From Natronococcus sp. AD-5 (GTDB lineage Archaea > Halobacteriota > Halobacteria > Halobacteriales > Natrialbaceae), in contig NZ_CP132294.1 in NCBI RefSeq assembly GCF_030734285.1, positions 806,001 through 870,000 on the forward strand: a DNA stretch of 64,000 bases. Direction: 5' to 3'. A model generated the notes under the pieces. It was given only the letters and a program-made list of their open reading frames with translations. It did not search any database and had not been told where the DNA came from. The position numbers were made by a program, and so were the translations under genes. This document shows positions 5,395 to 58,926 of the stretch, one piece after another. Position 1 is the first letter of the stretch. The number at the start of each line of letters is the position of its first letter.

Positions 5395-7563
5395 ATGACC
5401 CAGCCGACCGAGCGCAACCGGCTCGAGGAGGAGCAAAGCCCCTACCTGCGCCAGCACGCGGACAACCCCGTCAACTGGCAGCCGTGGGACGAACGGGCCC
5501 TCGAGACGGCCCGCGAGCACGACGTTCCGATCTTCCTCTCGATCGGCTACTCGGCGTGTCACTGGTGTCACGTCATGGAAGACGAGAGCTTCGCCGACGA
5601 GGAGGTCGCCGAGGAGCTCAACGAGCACTTCGTGCCGATCAAGGTCGACCGCGAGGAGCGCCCGGACGTCGACAGCATCTACATGACGGTCTGCCAGCTG
5701 GTCAGCGGCGGCGGCGGCTGGCCGCTCTCGGCGTGGCTCACGCCCGAGGGGAAGCCGTTCTACGTCGGGACCTACTTCCCGAAGGAATCGAAGCGAGGAC
5801 AGCCGGGCTTTCTCGACGTGCTCGAGAGCCTGCGCAACTCCTGGGAGACGGACCGCGACGAGGTCGAGAACCGGGCCGACCAGTGGACCGCGGCGGCGAG
5901 AGATCAACTCGAGGAGACGCCCGACGCCGTCGGCGCCGCGGAGCCGCCCTCGAGCGAGGTCCTCGAGCGGGCGGCGGACGCCGCGCTTCGAAGCGCGGAC
6001 CGCCAGTACGGCGGCTTCGGCTCCGGCGGGCCGAAGTTCCCCCAGCCGTCGCGGCTGCACGCGCTCGCCCGGGCGTACGACCGAACCGGCCGCGAGGAGT
6101 ACCTCGAGGTGATCGAGGAGTCCCTCGGCGCGATGGCCGACGGCGGGCTCTACGACCACGTCGGCGGCGGCTTCCACCGCTACTGCGTCGACCGCGACTG
6201 GACGGTGCCCCACTTCGAGAAGATGCTGTACGACAACGCCGAGATTCCGCGCGCCCTGCTCGCCGGCTACCAGCTGACCGGCGACGAGCGCTACGCCGGC
6301 GTCGTCGCGGAGACGCTCGAGTTCGTCTCCCGGGAGCTCACCCACGACGAGGGCGGCTTCTTCAGCACCCTCGACGCGCAGAGCGAGGATCCCGAGACCG
6401 GCGAGCGCGAGGAGGGCGCGTTCTACGTCTGGACGCCCGACGAAGTCCGGGCGGTGCTCGAGGACGAGACCGACGCCGACCTCTTCTGCAAGCGCTTCGA
6501 CGTCACCGGGTCGGGCAACTTCGAGGGGCGGAATCAGCCGAATATCGACGCGTCGATTCCCGAGCTCGCCGATCGGTTCGACCTCGAGGAGAACGAGGTT
6601 CGCGACCGGCTCGAGACGGCTCGCGAGCGACTGTTCGAGGCCCGCGAGGAGCGCCCGCGGCCCACTCGCGACGAGAAGGTGCTCGCGAGCTGGAACGGCC
6701 TGATGATCGCGACCTGCGCCGAGGCCGCGCTCGTGCTCGGAGAGGACGACTACGCCGAGATGGCGGTCGACGCCCTCGAGTTCGTCCGGGAGCGGCTCTG
6801 GGACCCGGACGACCGGCGCCTGTTCCGCCGGTACAAAGACGACGACGTCGCGGTTCAGGGCTACCTCGAGGACTACGCCTTCCTCGCGCGGGCCGCGCTG
6901 GGCTGTTACGAGGCGACCGGCGAGGTCGACCACCTCGCGTTCGCGCTCGAACTCGCACGAACCATCGAGGCCGAGTTCTGGGACGAGGATCGCGAGACGA
7001 TCTACTTCACACCCGAGAGCGGCGAGTCGCTCGTGACCCGACCGCAGGAGTTGAACGATCAGTCGACGCCCTCCGCGGCGGGGATTGCGGTCGAGACGCT
7101 GCTCGCGCTCGACGGCTTTGCAGACGAGGACTTCGAGGAAATCGCCGCGTCGGTCCTCGAGACCCGCGCCGGTCGCCTCGAGTCGAACCCGCTCCAGCAC
7201 GCGACGCTCTGTCTCGCCGCGGATCGCCTCGAGTCGGGCGCGCTCGAGGTGACCGTCGCCGCCGACGAACTGCCCGTCGAGTGGCGCGACCGCTTCGCCT
7301 CGCGGTACCTGCCGGATCGGCTGTTCGCGCTCCGGCCGCCGACCGAAGAAGGGCTCGAGGAGTGGCTCGACCGGCTGGCACTCGAGGGTGCACCGGCGGT
7401 CTGGGCCGGCCGCGAGGCCCGCGACGACGAACCGACGCTGTACGTCTGCCGGAACCGGACCTGCTCGCCGCCGACCCACGACGTCGAGGATGCGCTCGCG
7501 TGGCTCGAGGAGTCGAGTACCGGCGAAGAAGGCGTAGCGACCGAAGACGACGTGCCGTTCTGA
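5395..7563 (+). CDS. Thioredoxin-domain protein, YyaL/spermatogenesis-associated protein 20 family
   Basis: 722 residues, the usual length of the DUF255/YyaL family. The N-terminus begins with family hallmarks: NRLEEEQSPYLRQHADNPV, then a thioredoxin-like domain with SACHWCHVM (Cys at about residues 55 and 58), FVPIKVDREERPDVD and GGGGWPLSAWLTPEGKPF. The central and C-terminal parts are an (alpha/alpha)6-barrel-like region with PHFEKMLYDNA and FFSTLDAQSED. A late CRNRTCSPP motif adds two more cysteines. The biochemical role of the family is not settled; a redox-linked or sugar-epimerase-like role has been proposed. A probable cytosolic thioredoxin is encoded next door on the other strand. Confidence 0.92.
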   Translation: MTQPTERNRLEEEQSPYLRQHADNPVNWQPWDERALETAREHDVPIFLSIGYSACHWCHVMEDESFADEEVAEELNEHFVPIKVDREERPDVDSIYMTVCQLVSGGGGWPLSAWLTPEGKPFYVGTYFPKESKRGQPGFLDVLESLRNSWETDRDEVENRADQWTAAARDQLEETPDAVGAAEPPSSEVLERAADAALRSADRQYGGFGSGGPKFPQPSRLHALARAYDRTGREEYLEVIEESLGAMADGGLYDHVGGGFHRYCVDRDWTVPHFEKMLYDNAEIPRALLAGYQLTGDERYAGVVAETLEFVSRELTHDEGGFFSTLDAQSEDPETGEREEGAFYVWTPDEVRAVLEDETDADLFCKRFDVTGSGNFEGRNQPNIDASIPELADRFDLEENEVRDRLETARERLFEAREERPRPTRDEKVLASWNGLMIATCAEAALVLGEDDYAEMAVDALEFVRERLWDPDDRRLFRRYKDDDVAVQGYLEDYAFLARAALGCYEATGEVDHLAFALELARTIEAEFWDEDRETIYFTPESGESLVTRPQELNDQSTPSAAGIAVETLLALDGFADEDFEEIAASVLETRAGRLESNPLQHATLCLAADRLESGALEVTVAADELPVEWRDRFASRYLPDRLFALRPPTEEGLEEWLDRLALEGAPAVWAGREARDDEPTLYVCRNRTCSPPTHDVEDALAWLEESSTGEEGVATEDDVPF

Positions 7564-7596
7564 CGGCGATCGAGGCGTTTCGGTCTCGAGTCGCGA

Positions 7597-7980
7597 TCAG
7601 GCCGTTTCGGTCTCGAGTTCGCTCTCGAGTTCTCCTGCGAGCCAGACGGCCGGCGGGACGTCCTCTTCTTCGACGAAGCGAGTGACCTCCTCGCCCGAAT
7701 CGTCCTCGACGACGATCGTCGGGATGTACTCGACGTCGTACTCCTCGACCCCGGGGCCCCGCTTGTCCTGGTCGACGGCGATCTCCTCGATGCGTTCTTC
7801 CGGGACCTCGGCGGCCTCGAGCGCCGCGCCGAAGTCGGGCAGCAGGGCGCGACAGTCCTTGCACCAGTCGCCGCCCCACACTTTGTAAGTCAGGTCGTCG
7901 CGAGCTGCGAGCGTGTCGACGGCGTCCTCGTAGGAGGCGGCGTCCCAGGTCGGGTTCGGCCGCATGGTTTCGAGACTCAT
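7597..7980 (-). CDS. Thioredoxin-family protein
   Basis: 127 residues, cytosolic, no signal peptide. A thioredoxin fold is indicated by WGGDWCKDCRALLPDF (active-site Cys-Lys-Asp-Cys), a middle acidic strand, and the cis-proline segment VEYIPTIVV. The active site CKDC differs from canonical CGPC, so it is a divergent thioredoxin. Transcribed convergently with the 722-residue thioredoxin-domain gene; the stops are 33 bases apart. Start chosen at ATG 7978-7980; a second Met six codons in is possible. Confidence 0.88.
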   Translation of the reverse strand: MSLETMRPNPTWDAASYEDAVDTLAARDDLTYKVWGGDWCKDCRALLPDFGAALEAAEVPEERIEEIAVDQDKRGPGVEEYDVEYIPTIVVEDDSGEEVTRFVEEEDVPPAVWLAGELESELETETA

Positions 7981-8223
7981 ACATTCGCGTTACGTCGTCG
8001 GGGGCTTAACGGCGGCGTTTCTGGCGCGCCTTTCCGAACTACAGAACCAGTCGGATTGCTCGAGTCGAACGGTCGCGCCGAGTCCCCGATAAAACGAGAC
8101 GTCGTCGCGGCGCTCCGTCCGAAAGAAGAGGATTCTACCGCGATGGTTCGTTACGAGAGAAAGGCTACCACCGACGAATGAGCGGTAGCCGTGTTCGACG
8201 AGATAAGCGTTGCGAGCCGGTAG

Positions 8224-8231
8224 TATTTTTA
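8224..8231 (+). promoter_or_regulatory. TATA-like box for leucine dehydrogenase gene
   Basis: TATTTTTA lies 25-32 bases upstream of the ATG at 8256, the spacing expected for a leaderless haloarchaeal transcript. Confidence 0.55.
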
Positions 8232-8255
8232 CGGGAAGCAAAAGGACTATTACGC

Positions 8256-9314
8256 ATGGTATTCAGTTCGATCGGCGAGGCCGGTCACGAACAGGTGTCG
8301 TACTTCACGGATCCGGAAACCGGGCTGCAGGCGATCATCGCGGTCCACGATACGACCCTGGGACGGTCGCTCGGCGGGACGCGAATCCTCGATTACGGCT
8401 CCGAGCGGGAGGCCCTCGAGGACGTCCTGCGCCTCTCGCGGGCGATGACCTACAAGGCGGCCGCCGCGGACCTCCCGCTCGGCGGCGGGAAAGCCGTCGT
8501 TCTCGGCGATCCGGCGGAGATCAAGACGGAGGCGCTGTTCGAGGCCTACGGTCGCGCCGTCGACTGCATGGGCGGGCGCTACATCACGTCGGTCGACGTC
8601 AACTCGGGCGTCGCCGACATGGACGTCGTCGCTCGAGAGACCGACCACGTCGTCGGCACGAGCGACGGGCTCGAGGATCCGTCGCCGATCACGGCCCACG
8701 GCGTCTTCCGTGGGATCCGCGCCTGCGCGGAGCACGTCTACGGAACCGACTCGCTCGACGGGCGCGACGTCGTGATCCAGGGGCTGGGGAAGGTCGGCCG
8801 GTCGCTCGCCGAGCAGCTGCTCGAGCACGGCGCGTCGGTGACGGTGTCGGACATCGACGCGGATCACGTCGAAGCGTTCGCGCGGGAGCACGACGTCGAG
8901 ACCGTCGCCCCGGACGCGGTCTACGAACGGCCCTGCGACGTCTTCGCCCCCTGCGCGATCGGCGGCGTCGTCAACGACGAGACGATCCCGCTCCTCGAGT
9001 GCGACGTCGTCGCGGGCGGCGCGAACAACGTCCTCGCCGAACGCCGCCACGCGAACGCCCTCCGCGAGCGCGGGATCCTGTACGCGCCCGACTACGTGCT
9101 CAACGGCGGCGGGCTGATCACGGTCGCCAAGGAGTACCTCGGCGGAACGCGCGAGGAAGCCCGCGAGGAGGCGTCGGCGATCGGCGACCGCCTGCTCGAG
9201 ATGATCGAGCGCGCGGCGGACCGGGAGGTGGCGGTACTCGAGGCGGCCGACGCGTACGCCGAAGAGCGGATTGCCGACGCGGAGGGCGAGTCGTCGGCGG
9301 TTCCGCGGCCGTAG
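8256..9314 (+). CDS. Glu/Leu/Phe/Val dehydrogenase, leucine dehydrogenase type
   Basis: 352 residues, matching leucine/valine/phenylalanine dehydrogenases (about 350) rather than glutamate dehydrogenases (about 420-450). Reversible oxidative deamination of branched-chain amino acids with NAD. Substrate-binding region: GRSLGGTRIL, AMTYKAAAADLPLGGGKAVV with catalytic Lys79 in GGGK, then DVNSG. The Rossmann motif is VVIQGLGKVGRSLAEQL; the C-terminal segment contains GGANNVLAE and YVLNGGGLI. The ATG at 8256 is preceded by a TATA-like box at leaderless spacing. Exact amino-acid specificity cannot be read from sequence. Confidence 0.92.
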   Translation: MVFSSIGEAGHEQVSYFTDPETGLQAIIAVHDTTLGRSLGGTRILDYGSEREALEDVLRLSRAMTYKAAAADLPLGGGKAVVLGDPAEIKTEALFEAYGRAVDCMGGRYITSVDVNSGVADMDVVARETDHVVGTSDGLEDPSPITAHGVFRGIRACAEHVYGTDSLDGRDVVIQGLGKVGRSLAEQLLEHGASVTVSDIDADHVEAFAREHDVETVAPDAVYERPCDVFAPCAIGGVVNDETIPLLECDVVAGGANNVLAERRHANALRERGILYAPDYVLNGGGLITVAKEYLGGTREEAREEASAIGDRLLEMIERAADREVAVLEAADAYAEERIADAEGESSAVPRP

Positions 9315-9403
9315 ACGCGTCGTTCTCATCCTCGCTCGCTGACACCGGCACGTCCTGCCGAGGTCCAGTACGGGTTTACGTCTCCGATTCCTACGCGCTT
9401 TCA

Positions 9404-50901: not shown

Positions 50902-52128
50902 ATGTCGGTTCGGCAGACGATCGGTCGGCTCGCGCGGTTCGACGTCCTCCTGGTCACCGCGGGAATCTGGTTTCTCGGGAAGTTCCTCCGGTACGCCTTT
51001 CCGCCGCTGTTCGACTCGTTCCAGGCGAGCTACGGCGTCTCGAACGCCGCCCTGGGGACCGCGTTCACCGGGTTCATGCTCGTCTACGCGGCGATGCAGT
51101 TTCCCTCGGGCATCCTGGCGGATCGACTCGGCTCGGTGACCGTCGTGACGATCGGCGTGATCACCGCGGCGGGCGCCGCGCTCGCGCTGATCGTCGATTC
51201 CCCGTTTCTCGTGCTCGTCGCGGCGATGCTCGCGATGGGAGCGGGGACCGGCGCGCACAAGACGGTCGCGGTGCAGCTGCTCGCTCGAGCGTATCCCGCA
51301 CGAACGGGGCGTGCGCTCGGCGTACACGACACCTTCGGCGCGTTCGGCGGCGTGATCGCCCCGACGGCGACGATCGCCGTCGGCGGGATCCCGTTTCTCC
51401 TCGGCGACAGCTGGCGCGCGATCTTTCTCACCGCCGGACTCCTCGGCCTCGGACTCGCGATCGCGTTTCGGCTCCGAGTTCCGGCGCAGCTCCCGTCCGA
51501 CGCCACCCGCGGCGGTGCCGCGAGCCGTGGCGGCGGCAGCGTTCGCCGGTACGCCGCGCTCTTTCGCGATCGGCGGTTCGCGGCGTTCGCGCTCCTGACC
51601 GTCCTCTTTTCGTTCACCTACAACGGGGTGGTCGCGTTCGCCCCGCTGTACCTGACACAAGAGGCAGGGCTGACGCGGACGACCGCGGGGATCCTCTACA
51701 GCGGGCTCTTCCTCGCGAGCCTCGTCCAGCTGGTGACCGGCGACCTCAGCGATCGGATCGGCAGACTCCCGATCATCGTCGCGACGCTCTCGCTCGCGTC
51801 GGTTTCGTCGTTCGCGTTCGTTTCGCTCACCGGCACCGGAAGCCCGATCCTGCTCGGCGGGGCGCTCGTCGCGATCGGGCTGGGATCGCACGGCTTCCGA
51901 CCCGTGCGCGGCGCGTACCTGATGACCGCGATCCCCGACGACGTCGCCGGCGGCGGTCTGGGAATCGTCCGAACGCTGTTGATGGCCGCCGGCGCGGTCG
52001 CTCCGGCGGTCGTCGGCGTCCTCTCGGAGACCGCCGGCTTCCGCCTCGCGTTCTGGCTCCTCGCCGGATCGGTCACGGGCGCCGCGCTGCTCGGAGCGGC
52101 GCTCTGGGCCGTCGAGGACCGCACGTAA
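50902..52128 (+). CDS. Major facilitator superfamily transporter
   Basis: 408 residues, about 12 helices. MFS motif A appears as FPSGILADRLGSVTVV after helix 2 and repeats in the second half as VTGDLSDRIGRLPIIV. Others: ARTGRALGVHDTFGAFGGVI and GFRPVRGAYLMTAIPDDVAG. Resembles nitrate/cyanate- or drug-type MFS carriers of Halobacteria, with no substrate marker. The N-terminus (MSVRQTIGRLARFDVLLVT) is short and basic. Monocistronic. Confidence 0.9.
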   Translation: MSVRQTIGRLARFDVLLVTAGIWFLGKFLRYAFPPLFDSFQASYGVSNAALGTAFTGFMLVYAAMQFPSGILADRLGSVTVVTIGVITAAGAALALIVDSPFLVLVAAMLAMGAGTGAHKTVAVQLLARAYPARTGRALGVHDTFGAFGGVIAPTATIAVGGIPFLLGDSWRAIFLTAGLLGLGLAIAFRLRVPAQLPSDATRGGAASRGGGSVRRYAALFRDRRFAAFALLTVLFSFTYNGVVAFAPLYLTQEAGLTRTTAGILYSGLFLASLVQLVTGDLSDRIGRLPIIVATLSLASVSSFAFVSLTGTGSPILLGGALVAIGLGSHGFRPVRGAYLMTAIPDDVAGGGLGIVRTLLMAAGAVAPAVVGVLSETAGFRLAFWLLAGSVTGAALLGAALWAVEDRT

Positions 52129-52206
52129 CCGGCAGTATCGAACGCTTCGCGACCGACCGCTCCCGCCGGCGTCGCTTTTTTGCTACCGTTCGTAGAACCA
52201 CCGCGT

Positions 52207-52572
52207 ATGTACTCGCTGATCGACCTCGAGAGCGTCGAGCCGCACGAACTCGAGCAGGAAGAGCCCACGCTGCTGCCGGTCGGGCTGGAACTCCGACCCG
52301 AACAGATGCGACCGAGCGTCTGGCACTACGAGAAAGGCGAGGAGAACACCTACCACCGCCAGGGCGAACAGGAGGAGCTGTACGTCGTCCTCGAGGGTTC
52401 CGTCGACGTCACGATCGAACGCGAGGACGAACGCGACGTGGTCACGCTCTCGACGCACGATTTCCTCGTCGTCCCGCCGGAGTCCTGGCGCCAACTCAGG
52501 GCGGTCGAGGAGAGCAAGGTGCTCGTCGTCGGTGCGCCGAACGTGAAAGACGACAGCATCGTCGAGGAGTGA
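52207..52572 (+). CDS. Cupin-domain protein
   Basis: 121 residues from ATG 52207. One cupin domain: MRPSVWHYEKGEENTYHRQGEQEELYVVLEGSVDVTI (in part: YHRQGEQEELYVVLEG is cupin motif 1 with His and Glu) and motif 2 in DFLVVPPESWRQLRAVEE, which lacks the usual His. Metal binding may be partial. A stand-alone small cupin like this could be a sugar isomerase, oxygenase or binding protein; not decidable. Convergent with the actin-like gene. Confidence 0.85.
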   Translation: MYSLIDLESVEPHELEQEEPTLLPVGLELRPEQMRPSVWHYEKGEENTYHRQGEQEELYVVLEGSVDVTIEREDERDVVTLSTHDFLVVPPESWRQLRAVEESKVLVVGAPNVKDDSIVEE

Positions 52573-52588
52573 GATCCCGAGGAACCGC

Positions 52589-55567
52589 TCACCTGCCGAG
52601 CAGGACCGCGGCCGTGAGCAACAGGACGCCGACGGCGGCCGCCGCGGCACCGGCGGTGACCGCTCCCGCGAGCGCGACGGTACCGCCGGCGACGAGTCCC
52701 GCACCGCCACCGCCCGCCGCGATGGTGGGAACGACGCCGGCTGCGGCGGTCGACTCGGTTCGAACTGACTCGAGTTCCGCCCGGAGCGCGTCGATCTCGT
52801 CCCGCGGGTCAGACGTCTGCTCCGCGGCCGATCCGTCCGACGCTGCGTCGAGATCGGCCGACAGTTCGTCGACCGCCGCGGCGAGCGCGTCGACGCGCTG
52901 TTCCTGTTCGTCGAGCCGGTTCGCGTGTTCGCTCGCCCGCTCGTCGAGGGTCGACTCGACCGTCTCGACGCGCTCCGCGCCGTCTCGTTCGACGTCTTCG
53001 AGCCGCGATTCGAGCGTCTCGAGGTCGGCTGCGAGGTCGTCGGTGGTCGCATCCAGTTCGTCGGTCGACTCGTGAACTGTCGATACCGTTTCGCGAAGTT
53101 CGGTCACCGTGTCGACGTCCGCGGCGTCGGCCGTCGCCCGCTCGAGGTCCTCGCGGAGGGCCTCGAAAGACTCGCGGGCGTTCTCGAGTTGCTCGCGGAG
53201 GTCGTCGACGGATTCACGGTTGCCGTCGATGGATTCGCGATTGTCGTCCACGTCCGCACGCGTCTCCGCGAGTGCGCGTTCCAGTTCCGTACTCGTCTCG
53301 TCGAGTCGCGCTTCCAGCGACCGGACGTCGGATTCGAGCGCCGCGGCGCCGTCGTCGACCGTCTCGAGGTCGGCCGCGAGCGAGTCGAGGGCGCTCGAAT
53401 CCGAAACCTCGTCCTCGAGGTCCGCGACCGCGTCCGAAACGTTCCCGATAGCGTCCTCGAGGTCCGCGAGGTCGTCCGCCAGAGATTCGAGCTCCGCGAC
53501 CTCCTGCGTCAGCGATTCGAGGTCGTCGTCGATCGCGTCGACGCGCTCGTCGGCGGCGGCCGTCGATCGGAGCTCGTCCGTCGCCTGCTGGGCGGTTTCG
53601 AGTTGGGCCTCGAGCGTCGCCGACCGGTCCGTGATCGACGCGTCGAGGTCCGCGAGTTCGTCCTCGAGGAGGTCGAACCGTTCGTCCGCGCTCTCGAGTC
53701 GTTCGTCGACGCGCTCGAGGTCGGTGGCGGCGTCCTCGACGCGATCGTCGATATCGTGAACGTCGTCGACGGCGGCTTCGATCCGATCCTCGACGCCCTC
53801 GAGGTCGTCTTCGAGCGTGGTCTCGACGGCGTCGACCCGCGCGTTCGTCCGTTCCGAGAGCTCCTCGAGCCGGCCGGAGACGCCGCTGATCCGGGTCGCC
53901 TGTTCCTCGAGACGATCGACGATCCCGTCCGTTCGGGCGTCCAGACCGGCGAGTCTGTCGTCGACCCCCTCGAGGTCGGCCGCCAGTTCGTCGACGCGGT
54001 CGTCGATCGGTTCGAGATCCGCCGCCGTCGCCGCTCGCTCGGAGAGCTCGGTCAGATCCGTTCGCAGGGTCTCGAGGTCGGACTCGAGCCCCGCGATCTC
54101 GTCCGCGAGCGCGTCCCGCTCGCTCGTCGCGGTGTCCGCGAGTTCCGCGAGCGCAACGTCGAGGGCTGCGGCGTTATCCTCGATCGCCGCGAGGTCGTTC
54201 GAAAGGTCGTCGAGCGACGCCTCGAGCGCGTCGACCGCCGCCTCGCTCGCGTGCGTGTCGCTCTCGGCTTCGAGCGCGATCAGACCGTCCGCGACGGTCT
54301 CGAGTTCCTCGTCGAGTTCCCGCACGTCCGCCGCGGGCGCGGATCGTTCTTCGACGGAGTCGACTTCGTCGGCGAGGTCCTCGAGGTCCGCGGTTATCGA
54401 CTGGATCTCCTCGTCGCGGTTCGCGAGCCGGTCGAACAGCTGGTCGATGGCAGCGTCCGCCAGGTCGTTCTCGCGCTCGTGGTCGAGCGATTCGTCGAAC
54501 GAGAGCGTGGTCCCGTTGCTGGCGCCGTCGGCTTCGCGGGAGCGATCCGCAGCGCTCGGCTCGTCGCCTCCGACCGCCGACGCGTCGACGGTGATCCCGT
54601 CGTCGTCCGTGACGCCGTCTCGCGCCGCCGCGAGCGCTCCTCTGGCCGCACTCGCGGCCGGGTCGTCGGCCAGTCGGACGCCGCGGATAGCAAACGGGAG
54701 GTTCGAGGCGTCGAACCGGCCGCCGAAGAGGTACTCGACGCCCTCGACCGCGTGCTCGCCGCCGATCGCGAGCGGGACCGCGAGTCCCTGCTGGAGTTCG
54801 CTTTCGTCGGCTTCCGCCCGGATCGCGTCGGCGAGTTCGCCGACGAGCGCGTCGTACGCCCGGGCCAACGCGCTCTCGATCGCTCCCGTCGCCGCGTTCG
54901 GATCGAGTTCGAACCCCTCGAGCGCCGCGGCGACCCGCGCCGGCGCCTCTCCGGTGTCGGCCGCCGCCCGTTCGACGAGCCACTCGCCGCCTTTCGCGAC
55001 CGAGAACGCCATCGCCGGGACGCCGTAGTACGCGAGCGCGACGCTCGTCGTCTGGCGGTCGATACAGACGCCGAGGCCGGTGTAGTTGTCCGCCGCGAGT
55101 TGGTCGTAGACGACGGCGAACCCCCTGGCGATCGGAGACGGATCGACGTCACGCGCCGCGCGGATCGACTCGCCGACGGACCGGTGCGTTCCGGCCGTCG
55201 CGGTCGCGTCGACTACCGTGCCGGGCGTCGTGTAACAGCCCTGCCCGTCCGCTTGCCCCGGGAGCACCGCATCGACGATCGCCTCCAGTGCCGGGCGTGC
55301 GTAGGTCTCGTCCACGAGTGCCCCGTCCGTGAACAGGTCGCGGGGATCGTCCCCCGCGGCGTCCGCGGCCGCGCTCGCGTCGGATCCCACGACGTACGTC
55401 GCGTCGTCGACATCGACCGTCAGCGTATTCGCCAGCGAGAGTCCCGCCGACTCGAGCGTCGGCTCGGCGACCGGAAACGCGACCGGCGGTTCCGACCCCG
55501 TCGGTTCGTCGCCGTCGTCCGCAACCCCCGTAATCGCCCCGGATCCGATATCGAGACCGTATGCCAT
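52589..55567 (-). CDS. Actin-like ATPase-type domain fused to long coiled coil and C-terminal membrane anchor
   Basis: 992 residues. Residues 1 to about 315 look like a divergent actin/FtsA/PilM fold: phosphate-1 motif YGLDIGSGAITGV (residues 3-15), phosphate-2-like LGVCIDRQTTSVALAYYGVP (165-184) followed by FSVAKGGEWLVE, and an adenosine-motif-like LAVPLAIGGEHAVEGVEYLF (262-281). The phosphate-2 loop lacks the usual glycines, so ATPase activity is uncertain. A Ser/Asp linker follows. Residues about 360-930 are almost continuous heptads rich in Leu, Asp, Glu (for example RLEELSERTNARVDAVE), a rod potentially tens of nanometres long. The last 50 residues are Gly/Ala-rich and hydrophobic (AGGTVALAGAVTAGAAAAAV), a membrane anchor. 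I know no characterised protein with this layout. Confidence 0.8.
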   Translation of the reverse strand: MAYGLDIGSGAITGVADDGDEPTGSEPPVAFPVAEPTLESAGLSLANTLTVDVDDATYVVGSDASAAADAAGDDPRDLFTDGALVDETYARPALEAIVDAVLPGQADGQGCYTTPGTVVDATATAGTHRSVGESIRAARDVDPSPIARGFAVVYDQLAADNYTGLGVCIDRQTTSVALAYYGVPAMAFSVAKGGEWLVERAAADTGEAPARVAAALEGFELDPNAATGAIESALARAYDALVGELADAIRAEADESELQQGLAVPLAIGGEHAVEGVEYLFGGRFDASNLPFAIRGVRLADDPAASAARGALAAARDGVTDDDGITVDASAVGGDEPSAADRSREADGASNGTTLSFDESLDHERENDLADAAIDQLFDRLANRDEEIQSITADLEDLADEVDSVEERSAPAADVRELDEELETVADGLIALEAESDTHASEAAVDALEASLDDLSNDLAAIEDNAAALDVALAELADTATSERDALADEIAGLESDLETLRTDLTELSERAATAADLEPIDDRVDELAADLEGVDDRLAGLDARTDGIVDRLEEQATRISGVSGRLEELSERTNARVDAVETTLEDDLEGVEDRIEAAVDDVHDIDDRVEDAATDLERVDERLESADERFDLLEDELADLDASITDRSATLEAQLETAQQATDELRSTAAADERVDAIDDDLESLTQEVAELESLADDLADLEDAIGNVSDAVADLEDEVSDSSALDSLAADLETVDDGAAALESDVRSLEARLDETSTELERALAETRADVDDNRESIDGNRESVDDLREQLENARESFEALREDLERATADAADVDTVTELRETVSTVHESTDELDATTDDLAADLETLESRLEDVERDGAERVETVESTLDERASEHANRLDEQEQRVDALAAAVDELSADLDAASDGSAAEQTSDPRDEIDALRAELESVRTESTAAAGVVPTIAAGGGGAGLVAGGTVALAGAVTAGAAAAAVGVLLLTAAVLLGR

Positions 55568-55766
55568 AGCCCCGGGGACTCGAAGCACCCTCTTGGAGGT
55601 TTGGTCTCGAGTACCAGATGTGAAAATTAGGCCGTCGTCGCCGATGGACGCGGAGGTGTCGACTCGAGAGGAGGCGACGTCGACGCGAGTGAATACCCGG
55701 ATACTACGCCGGTACGGCCGCGAGACGCGTCCAACCTATTTACTGCTTCCCGTTGTCGAACGCGGT

Positions 55767-56114
55767 ATGGCAGCAGGTGATCCGTTCGTCCGGACGCTTC
55801 TGCTCGTCGTCGCGATCGTGCTGCTCGTCCCGTTTCTCACGATGGTCATGTTGATGCCGATGGTAGGATTCTGGGGTGGCGGCCACATGTGGAACGGTTG
55901 GGACGGCGGCGGGACGATCTGGTCGTGGATACTGCCGTGGGTCGCGTTCCTGGTGTTACTTCTCGGCGGCGGGTTCCTTCCGGCCCGTGCGCTCGGCGGC
56001 GGTGAGCCTCGGCAAACGGACCCCGCACTCGAGGAGTTGCGGCTGGCGTACGCCCGGGGTGAACTCTCCGACGAAGAGTTCGAGGAGCGACGCGAACGGC
56101 TTCGACGCGGGTGA
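55767..56114 (+). CDS. SHOCT-domain membrane protein
   Basis: 115 residues from ATG 55767. Two membrane helices: TLLLVVAIVLLVPFLTMVML and WSWILPWVAFLVLLLGGGFL, separated by a Gly/Trp-rich loop (GGGHMWNGWDGGGTIWSW). The C-terminal 30 residues are a SHOCT motif: DPALEELRLAYARGELSDEE, FEERRERL. SHOCT is a short oligomerisation module. Function unknown; Gly/Trp loop proteins of this type are frequent in haloarchaea. Confidence 0.87.
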   Translation: MAAGDPFVRTLLLVVAIVLLVPFLTMVMLMPMVGFWGGGHMWNGWDGGGTIWSWILPWVAFLVLLLGGGFLPARALGGGEPRQTDPALEELRLAYARGELSDEEFEERRERLRRG

Positions 56115-56238
56115 TAATCGATCACCCGGCCAGTCGGGCGTCCGTCGTACACCCGCGAAATGCCGTGGGTAGCAGTTACCGCGCCGCTCGGGACGCGACG
56201 CGATCAGACGATGCGATCAGCGTCGACGGAATCGGCGG

Positions 56239-57060
56239 TTAGCGGTTCGAGAGCGACCCGTCGACGGTCACGTCGTCGTCGACGGAGAGCGTCGCTCCCC
56301 ACGCGGACTCCGGAACGCGAGTGTTGACCATCAGTCGGAAGTAGTGATCGAACCACGCTTCGCCCGCCCACTCCGGGAGCGTCGCTTCGCGCCGGTCGAC
56401 GAACCGCTCCCGGAAGCCGTCGGTTTCCGCGCCGGTGTCCGGATCGCGCGTCGGAACCACGCACCGCTGGCACGGGTTTACGCCCTCGAGAGCGGCCTCG
56501 CCGATGGTGAACGGGACGACCAGTCCTGGTTCCTCGTAGAGGCGGTCCTCCCAGAACGCCGGAACGTCGCCCACGACGAGGTTAGGACGGAGCCGGCGGC
56601 ACATCTCCGCGGAATCGATCCCGTCGTACCACGATGCGACCGCCTCGAGCGTCCCGTCGCCGATGACGGTCGGCCCCGAGGCGTCCGCGTCGTCCGGAAA
56701 GCCGCCCTCGTCGTCGCGGACGACCTCGACGGAGTACCCGAGAACGTCGGAGAGCCACGCGGCGAACTCGTCCCGATCGCGTTCGAGGTGGAACGTGCCG
56801 GTCTCGTCGCCGTCCCGCTCCCGGATTGTCACCGTTTCTCGTTCGAGGTCGTACTCGGCTGCCAGCCGGTGGATCCGTGGTTCTCGTTTGCCGTTGACGT
56901 ACGGGGCGTCGGCGGAGGTCTCGGTTCGGTCGGTCGACTCGACGATCGCGTACCGACGGTCCCACGCGAGTCCGCCGTTGGCGACGATCTCCGCCGACGT
57001 CACCACTGCCGCGTCGAGCGACTTGATCGGATGGACGCGGATCCGCTCGAGGGAACTCAT
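56239..57060 (-). CDS. MOSC-domain protein (molybdenum cofactor sulfurase C-terminal type)
   Basis: 273 residues from ATG 57058-57060; homology starts at SSLERIRVHPIKSLDAAVVT, typical of the MOSC N-terminal beta-barrel. The MOSC domain follows with RRLRPNLVVGDVPAFWEDRL and the conserved cysteine in VNPCQRCVVPTRDPDTG. MOSC proteins bind molybdenum cofactor or activate amidoximes (mARC/YcbX). Missing: any ferredoxin domain of YcbX. An in-frame start 24 bases upstream is less likely. Confidence 0.9.
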   Translation of the reverse strand: MSSLERIRVHPIKSLDAAVVTSAEIVANGGLAWDRRYAIVESTDRTETSADAPYVNGKREPRIHRLAAEYDLERETVTIRERDGDETGTFHLERDRDEFAAWLSDVLGYSVEVVRDDEGGFPDDADASGPTVIGDGTLEAVASWYDGIDSAEMCRRLRPNLVVGDVPAFWEDRLYEEPGLVVPFTIGEAALEGVNPCQRCVVPTRDPDTGAETDGFRERFVDRREATLPEWAGEAWFDHYFRLMVNTRVPESAWGATLSVDDDVTVDGSLSNR

Positions 57061-57414: not shown

Positions 57415-58926
57415 ATGTCCGAAACCGGGACGGAGTCACGTCCGCTGGGCCGGCAACTTCCCGATCCAGCTACCGCGTCGAACGTCCGGTACAACCCGCC
57501 GCTCGGGGAGCTTCGCGAACTCGCCGAACCCGACGAGACGACGACCGAGTTCGGCTCGCCGTCGTTCGTCAGCGATAGTCGCTCGCGGAGCGCCGACCGG
57601 ACGAAAAACGCCGTCGACCACGCGTTCGCGGAGCGGGATCACGAACTGGTCGACGAGGCGATCGACGACGCCGGAACCCGCGAGATGCTCTGCGTGGACC
57701 GGCTGCTGGGCCGTCACCCGGACGCGACGTTCTGCTGTCGGCTCTACGTCCCCGCCGAGCACGCCCGGATCGCCCTCGCCTGGGCGAACCTGTTCGAGCC
57801 GAGCGACGGCCGCGAACCGGATTTCCGGACGGTACAGCTCCCGGACTACGACGAGACGGCGATTCGAATCCTTCCGGACGACGGACTCACTGCCGTCCTC
57901 GGCAGCGACTACACCGGCGAGGCGAAGAAGTCCTTCCTCCGGCTGTTCATGTATCGGATCAAACAGCAGGGCGGGCTCGGTCTCCACGCCGGGAGCAAAC
58001 GCGTCCGCGTTCGCGACGCCGACGGCGACCTGCGCGACGTCGGTCAGCTGTTCATGGGACTCTCCGCGACCGGCAAGTCGACGCTCACCGCACACGGCTG
58101 CTGGCTCGAGGACCCCGAAGGAGCCGTCATGCTCCAGGACGACGTCTGCGCGCTGCTCCCGGACGGTTCGGTGCCCGGCGGCGAAGGGAAGGGGCTGTTC
58201 ATCAAGACGATCGGCCTCGACGAGTCGGAACAGCCCGGTCTCTACCGGGCCGCGACGGACGCGTCCGCGATCCTCGAGAACGTCGCCGTCGACGACGACG
58301 GCACGGTGGACTTCGACGACCCGCGACACACGACGAACGCCCGCGCGATCGTCCAGCGCGACGAACTCCCGAGCGCGGCCGACGAGATCGACCTCGACCG
58401 GCTCGACCAGATCTTTTTCATCACGCGGAACCCGCTCGTGCCGCCCGTCGCGAAGCTCTCGACCGAGCAGGCCGCCGCCGCGTTCATGCTCGGCGAGTCG
58501 ATCGAAACCAGCGCCGGCGACCCCTCGCGGGCCGGCGAGTCGATCCGCGTCGTCGGAACGAACCCGTTCATCGTCGGCTCCGAGGGCGAGGAGGGGAACG
58601 CCTTCTACGGCCTCGTCGACCTGCTCGACGTCGACTGCTACCTGCTCAACACGGGCTCTCTCGGCGACGAGGCCAAGGACGTCGGCGTCGCCGAATCGGT
58701 AACGATCCTCACGGAGGTCGCCCGCGGCACGATCGAGTGGACCGACGACGACTGCACCGGACTGACGATCCCGGAATCGGTCCCCGGCCTCGAAATCGGC
58801 GACTACTACGTCCCGGAGTACGTCGACGACTACGACGCGGCCCTCGCCGATCTTCGACGCGAGCGTCGCGAGTACCTCGCGCAGTTCGACGACCTCCGCG
58901 AGGGGATTCTCGAAGCGGTCTACTGA
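57415..58926 (+). CDS. pckA: Phosphoenolpyruvate carboxykinase (ATP)
   Basis: 503 residues. Catalyses oxaloacetate plus ATP to PEP and CO2, the entry to gluconeogenesis. ATP-type landmarks: DYTGEAKKSFLRLFMYRIKQ, P-loop FMGLSATGKSTLTAHG, kinase-2 motif QDDVCALLP, EGKGLFIKTIGLDESEQPG, then RNPLVPPVAKLSTEQAAAAFM. Slightly shorter than E. coli PckA (540). Strong TATA box upstream and A/T-rich flank suggest regulated leaderless expression. Confidence 0.95.
   Translation: MSETGTESRPLGRQLPDPATASNVRYNPPLGELRELAEPDETTTEFGSPSFVSDSRSRSADRTKNAVDHAFAERDHELVDEAIDDAGTREMLCVDRLLGRHPDATFCCRLYVPAEHARIALAWANLFEPSDGREPDFRTVQLPDYDETAIRILPDDGLTAVLGSDYTGEAKKSFLRLFMYRIKQQGGLGLHAGSKRVRVRDADGDLRDVGQLFMGLSATGKSTLTAHGCWLEDPEGAVMLQDDVCALLPDGSVPGGEGKGLFIKTIGLDESEQPGLYRAATDASAILENVAVDDDGTVDFDDPRHTTNARAIVQRDELPSAADEIDLDRLDQIFFITRNPLVPPVAKLSTEQAAAAFMLGESIETSAGDPSRAGESIRVVGTNPFIVGSEGEEGNAFYGLVDLLDVDCYLLNTGSLGDEAKDVGVAESVTILTEVARGTIEWTDDDCTGLTIPESVPGLEIGDYYVPEYVDDYDAALADLRRERREYLAQFDDLREGILEAVY

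Follow-up and report, generated by a model that had tools for sequence, protein, structure and literature searches.

The window, that is, the whole stretch of 64,000 nucleotides analysed here, comes from the genome of Natronococcus sp. AD-5 (5.17 Mb in 2 contigs) and carries on its minus strand, at 52589-55567 including the stop codon, a gene coding for a protein of 992 aa, which had already been called as an open reading frame in the initial annotation and proved to be real at these coordinates. The features of the gene and of its upstream region are as follows:

52589-55567, minus strand: CDS, 992 aa, coding for a volactin-type actin domain, a predicted coiled-coil rod and a C-terminal hydrophobic tail (ORF and translation, orthologues, purifying selection)
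55587-55628, minus strand: conserved upstream element RATTTTCANNTCTGGTAYTC...CCAAA...CCAAKRGG, position -60/-61 relative to the ATG (orthologue comparison)
54608-55567, minus strand: predicted actin-fold (volactin) domain, residues 1-320 (Pfam PF25216, AlphaFold2, structure matches to MamK and MreB)
55523-55552, minus strand: phosphate-1-type loop DIGSGAITGV, residues 6-15, aligned with the invariant DVGTMN-type loop of short volactins
55124-55126, minus strand: R148 at the catalytic-glutamate position (E in all 61 short volactins; alignment to MamK E143)
55034-55072, minus strand: degenerate phosphate-2 loop GVCIDRQTTSVAL, residues 166-178, where short volactins have invariant S, G, A, G, T and N
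54728-54766, minus strand: adenosine-type motif IGGEHAVEGVEYL (residues 268-280), at the place of the short-volactin region VTGGTSSPSGF in the alignment
54482-54607, minus strand: variable acidic low-confidence linker, residues 321-362 (pLDDT below 50 at 326-365; alignment A3)
54404-54460, minus strand: family-specific motif AIDQLFDRLANRDEEI at the rod start, residues about 370-388 (alignment A3 invariants)
52748-54481, minus strand: predicted coiled-coil rod, residues 363-940 (AlphaFold2 helices and heptad score)
52592-52747, minus strand: hydrophobic Gly/Ala-rich tail, residues 941-992, a probable membrane anchor (hydropathy and conservation)

The reading frame is more than a chance ORF, since the pairwise dN/dS values for the gene and those of two congeners are 0.29-0.31 in the head domain and 0.35-0.46 in the rod, and orthologues from many genera have the same architecture. 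Among the loci compared, the closest one with a species name is that of Natronococcus pandeyae, with 82% identity in the domain. The ATG start is backed both by the orthologue alignments, which begin at a conserved point, and by the upstream element, located at a fixed distance of -60 to -62 in 36 orthologues.

Actin-fold head and nucleotide site

Residues 1-315 match positions 1-321 of the Pfam Volactin profile (PF25216) with an E value of 8.3e-117 and 390.7 bits (curated cut-off 35); the head domain scanned alone gives 395 bits, with no match to MreB_Mbl and only a sub-threshold ALP_N match besides. AlphaFold2 predicts a two-lobed actin fold for residues 1-345 (pLDDT 84.9, pTM 0.85, with a model built on a 28-sequence alignment), which agrees with the actin-like N-terminal domain claimed initially and would place the head in the actin/HSP70-fold superfamily. 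Foldseek searched with this model returned MamK first, with MreB and actins after it, and in VIA-align the best solved match was again MamK (Z 27.0, rmsd 3.0 over 288 residues), with Z about 25 for MreB and about 24 for actin, the MamK and MreB alignments spanning 274-289 residues. FtsA, PilM and crenactin or Asgard actins are not among the 50 best structure-match chains listed, an absence which excludes nothing. At the sequence level, the profile of the long head has no credible match among solved structures (E 0.17 and worse), and the profile of short volactins reaches MamK as its best match, as well as MreB. The MamK model NF040964 gives a short volactin 41 bits (cut-off 400) and is not among the best 25 of the 35 matches of the full long protein, where matches to the rod dominate.

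The nucleotide site was compared between 41 unique heads of the long form, as we call this protein and its orthologues, and 61 short volactins, 49 of them haloarchaeal and 12 from other families of the phylum. Invariant across the short volactins are T9, a glutamate at the position of R148, the S, G, A, G, T and N of the phosphate-2 loop, D195 and D198. In their profile alignment this glutamate falls on Glu143 of MamK (solved chains), the equivalent of E140 in CcMreB, a residue that acts with T167 in positioning the attacking water (PMC4051119). The same position is occupied by K, R, T, Q, S or A, and never by E, in 41/41 long forms, which have also all lost the serine equivalent to S168 and the aspartate equivalent to D198, while the second glycine of the phosphate-2 loop is lost in 39 of the 41. 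Volactin proper is characterised by the invariant glutamate, an SxGAGxTN phosphate-2 loop and GGDWxDE, whereas the Natronococcus protein has R, CIDRQTTS and a valine in place of D198. ATP hydrolysis has very probably been lost, since the glutamate, the serine and D198 are gone from every long head and the second phosphate-2 glycine from nearly all of them. The short volactin, for its part, has a serine at the position of the MamK phosphate-2 aspartate.

Other parts of the site are better kept: in the phosphate-1 loop D6 is retained in 40/41 and G8 in 35/41 long forms, and G270 of the adenosine-type motif is invariant in long forms and short volactins alike. In one long form (L076 of G018, residues 1-15) the phosphate-1 loop is without even the aspartate (GLALSSPLMR), so that erosion has gone one step further there. 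The motif positions given initially were borne out (DIGSGAITGV at 6-15, CIDRQTTSVAL at 168-178 and GGEHAVEGVEYL at 269-280), and the degenerate phosphate-2 loop described with them turned out to be part of a wider loss which includes the catalytic glutamate.

Conservation is uneven within the head, with lobe I and its subdomain IB eroded and lobe II better kept in the long family. With subdomain borders which are our own and approximate, mean pairwise identity is 67-70% in IIA, 54% in IIB, 43-47% in IA and 31% in IB, compared with 86-96% in all subdomains of the short haloarchaeal volactins (93% in IB). The length of IB varies from 33 to 108 in the long family, and in three orthologues the IB-carrying segment has 62-68 residues instead of the usual number of about 93.

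Linker, rod and hydrophobic tail

In the AlphaFold2 model of the full-length protein (mean pLDDT 69.9) the head is followed by the linker, helices over residues 363-940 and a last helix at 972-991. The predicted rod consists of helices 363-408, 415-439, 442-512, 519-670, 676-721, 724-814, 818-910 and 921-940, separated by short breaks. Its best-frame windowed heptad score is 0.514 against 0.236 +/- 0.014 in composition-matched shuffles (Z 19), and the actin domain used as a control gives Z 0.2; the scoring weights were our own, and the contrast between rod and head is large. The long heptad rod read from the translation at first is thus predicted as a strongly heptad-periodic coiled coil. A single fixed period was considered and rejected, as no sharp period emerged when the whole rod was subjected to a Fourier test, which is explained by shifts of the heptad register from segment to segment, and the windowed test was used instead. 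The possibility that the protein belongs to SMC or Rad50 was also discarded: the scores are 78 bits against a cut-off of 729 and 58 against 1087, the matches are confined to the rod and there is no ATPase head.

At the start of the rod lies the AIDQLFDRLANRDEEI motif, in which A373, F378, R380, L381, R384 and D385 are invariant in alignment A3, and the pattern LFxRLxxRD is present in nearly all unique long forms. The tail, which had been noted as a Gly/Ala-rich hydrophobic end, has a Kyte-Doolittle 19-residue maximum of 2.34 at 972 and a pattern, GGGGAG[LVI]VAGG...G, conserved across orthologues. One clear TM-like helix is predicted at about 967-991, possibly forming a hairpin with about 943-966, so that the tail is a probable membrane anchor and the rod would be cytosolic. 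No convincing second motif of the AIDQLFDRLANRDEEI type or second hydrophobic tail was found in the genome.

The length of the rod varies among orthologues from 129 to 883 aa, while the head, the LFxRLxxRD motif and the tail are conserved, as would be expected if a spacer separated a head from an anchor. The shortest complete long form seen, from Halopiger djelfimassiliensis (L089), has 575 aa, of which about 129 make up the rod, and can be regarded as a natural minimal version.

Distribution, origin and genomic context

Volactin (VolA, HVO_2015; PF25216) has been described previously (PMC10869688, PMC7617734) and makes dynamic filaments in vivo (PMC10869688). It belongs to the same domain family as the long form, but short volactins have about 345 aa and neither a rod nor a hydrophobic tail. 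The host genome contains, in addition to the long gene, an ordinary volactin of 344 aa (C1:940370-941347), which is 36% identical to the long-form head. The actin domain, the coiled coil, the hydrophobic end and the degenerate site stand as they were interpreted initially, whereas the volactin identity of the head and the separate short volactin had been missed.

When 391 genomes of the class were searched with a profile of the long head, the result was bimodal, with a score gap between the long forms, found in 75 genomes (open frames of 649-1564 aa, 334-535 bits), and the short volactins (frames mostly of about 340-400 aa, at most 290 bits). All 75 genomes belong to Natrialbaceae, in which 101 genomes have any match, and the architecture is kept across genera; the named carriers include Natrinema, Natrialba, Natronorubrum, Haloterrigena, Halopiger, Natronococcus, Halovivax, Halorubellus and Haloarchaeobius. 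Each of the 75 holds at least one further match from the same search, but such co-occurrence carries little weight, because the short volactin is near-universal in these genomes. Several Natronococcus species are without the long form, so it appears to be dispensable in some lineages.

When volactins of other classes serve as the root, the tree groups all 36 long heads included in it in a single clade (100/99), which falls on the haloarchaeal side. Joined to it, with 99/99 for the joint clade, are two long proteins which diverge far more, belong to two further haloarchaeal families and also have a coiled-coil-like region and a hydrophobic end; their long branches make the depth of the duplication uncertain. 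Of these two, the one in L081 (G060, 6745-9342) keeps GGDWID and the one in L128 (G058) keeps a GTGT phosphate-2 loop, and both are without the catalytic glutamate. The possibility that the long form is volactin proper, i.e., an orthologue of VolA, was rejected in view of its 992 aa with rod and tail, the separate 344-aa volactin in the genome and the separate clade. Judged by their sequences, the long forms make up a separate family, probably derived from a duplicated volactin, of volactin-domain pseudo-actins rather than volactin proper.

The upstream element was found at -60/-61 with no more than 4 mismatches in its 29 bases in 34 of the 39 orthologues compared, and two others have it in that position with 7 and 9 mismatches; it is missing from three genes of Halorubellus and Haloarchaeobius. 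The best sites in shuffled upstream sequences have 11-15 mismatches. At up to 2 mismatches the element is single in the host genome, and in relatives the sites with 0-1 mismatch which were compared with known positions sit about 60 bases 5' of long volactin genes. It is probably a promoter or an operator of the long volactin gene. The element spans about 29-45 bp, keeps its spacing from the ATG across Natrialbaceae genera and is conserved above the level expected for a core promoter. In an Rfam search over 52000-56500, the only match was a sub-threshold microRNA inside the CDS, which was taken as chance.

The chromosomal position of the long form is conserved and its neighbours are functionally mixed, with no common theme: an MFS gene was found at 27, a MOSC gene at 24, a PEPCK gene at 21 and a cupin gene at 18 of 41 loci, several of which are truncated by contig ends. 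In the window, a PEPCK_ATP-family protein (Pfam PF01293) belonging to this conserved neighbourhood is encoded at 57415-58923 on the plus strand. No operon partner was found, and the Natronococcus gene, with its MFS transporter, cupin, MOSC and PEPCK neighbours, lies beside neither volactin nor any cytoskeletal gene. In congeners without the long form, the MOSC neighbour is also absent or replaced by a distant paralogue, and no clean empty site was seen.

Possible function

In our estimate there is a probability of about 0.5 that the long protein works as an adaptor with an actin fold, tethered to the membrane and unable to hydrolyse ATP. It would descend from a duplicated volactin which ceased to hydrolyse ATP and acquired a long coiled-coil spacer together with a membrane anchor at its C-terminus; the tail would insert in the membrane, and the rod would oligomerise, probably as a dimer, with a length of about 20 to about 130 nm depending on the species, keeping the actin-fold heads at a distance from the membrane. 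The heads would then be binding modules that do not hydrolyse, comparable to the adaptors FtsA and PilM and not to a treadmilling filament. The loss of the hydrolytic residues together with the erosion of lobe I and IB argues for an adaptor head over a self-polymerising subunit.

FtsA and PilM would resemble the long form in their working only, as membrane-linked actin-fold adaptors: FtsA differs by its subdomain 1C and short amphipathic tail and PilM by its pairing with PilN, and to our knowledge neither has a long rod. MreB, with the same fold and membrane-associated, binds the membrane directly via its own domain and has a glycine-rich phosphate-2 loop and no rod. It also has the catalytic E140 (PMC4051119), which is absent from the long form. 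In D. magneticus the actin-like MamK and Mad28 work with separate coiled-coil Mad proteins (PMC12748827), and MamK and Mad28 are described as being without transmembrane domains, whereas the long form has the rod and the hydrophobic tail fused to the head.

The likeliest client of such an adaptor, named tentatively, would be the ordinary volactin of the host; the head would cap, nucleate or anchor the ends of its filaments at the membrane. Salactin, another haloarchaeal actin homologue, whose filaments extend from the cell poles (PMC10746226), belongs to a separate family (NF053533), the short volactin scoring 15 bits against a cut-off of 400. Its model has no match at E 0.001 in the whole host genome, the long form included, which leaves volactin as the obvious partner. 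Volactin is also the most economical one: it is the parent family, the genome search revealed no further actin of these families, and in Haloferax the tips of its filaments touch the membrane, with binding factors that have been called unknown (PMC10869688). The better-kept lobe II and the eroded IB suggest an end-capping role for the head, and it can be proposed with considerable reserve that the catalytically dead paralogue docks the ends of volactin filaments via its better-conserved lobe while the spacer of about 20-130 nm, tuned to the species, links them to the cytoplasmic membrane, making it both an anchor and an end-cap or nucleator. The logic would be comparable to that of an Arp-type nucleator, were it fused to its own membrane tether. 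The position of the long form beside no volactin or cytoskeletal gene counts against a volactin anchor, and such an anchor would at best be lineage-specific, because Haloferax volcanii shows the tip contact and no long paralogue has been reported for it in the open literature searched.

The tethered pseudo-actin may instead serve a client other than volactin, e.g., FtsZ/SepF, a complex located at the pole or organising the chromosome, or a partner binding LFxRLxxRD, and we consider this rather doubtful. Membrane-linked actin folds such as FtsA and PilM do serve non-actin partners, the rod-proximal LFxRLxxRD is nearly invariant and unexplained, and the gene neighbours favour neither type of client; however, positive evidence was obtained for no such client.

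It is unlikely that the long protein itself polymerises, by its heads, its coiled coil or both, into a membrane-bound filament or a scaffold shaping the cell, and the filament-forming or cell-shape role proposed in the initial annotation is so far unsupported. The actin fold aligned over nearly the whole head, the long coiled coil and the ability of MamK and Mad28 to make homo- and heteropolymers (PMC12748827) are consistent with a filament, but the catalytic and phosphate-2 residues are lost, the rod length is not conserved and IB is the least conserved part of the head, shortened in the three orthologues mentioned above. Subdomain IB of the actin family moves on polymerisation and contributes to protofilament contacts (PMC4051119 and, in part, general knowledge).

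Least probable is a degenerate head without any partner which merely oligomerises or positions a coiled-coil membrane protein, like an intermediate filament or an SMC-like spacer. In favour of this are the eroded actin-site residues and the likeness of the rod to the coiled coils of SMC/Rad50 and of archaeal SMC-related proteins (with scores far below the cut-offs). Against it, the head is the most constrained part of the protein (dN/dS about 0.3, IIA identity up to 70%), and nothing like the ATPase head of SMC or Rad50 was seen.

As for novelty, the volactin domain family is known and named, and the fusion of its domain to a rod and a tail with catalytic loss is, as far as found, undescribed: a search of the open literature revealed no report of a haloarchaeal volactin-rod-tail fusion or of its catalytic loss. 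For annotation this means that the 'volactin' matches in these genomes fall into two classes, one of the filament type and one probably not. For the attachment of haloarchaeal actin filaments to the membrane, the dead head, rod and tail encoded by a single gene in most sampled Natrialbaceae represent a concrete candidate. If true, an actin turned pseudo-enzyme would here, in archaea, have become an adaptor through being fused to its own tether.
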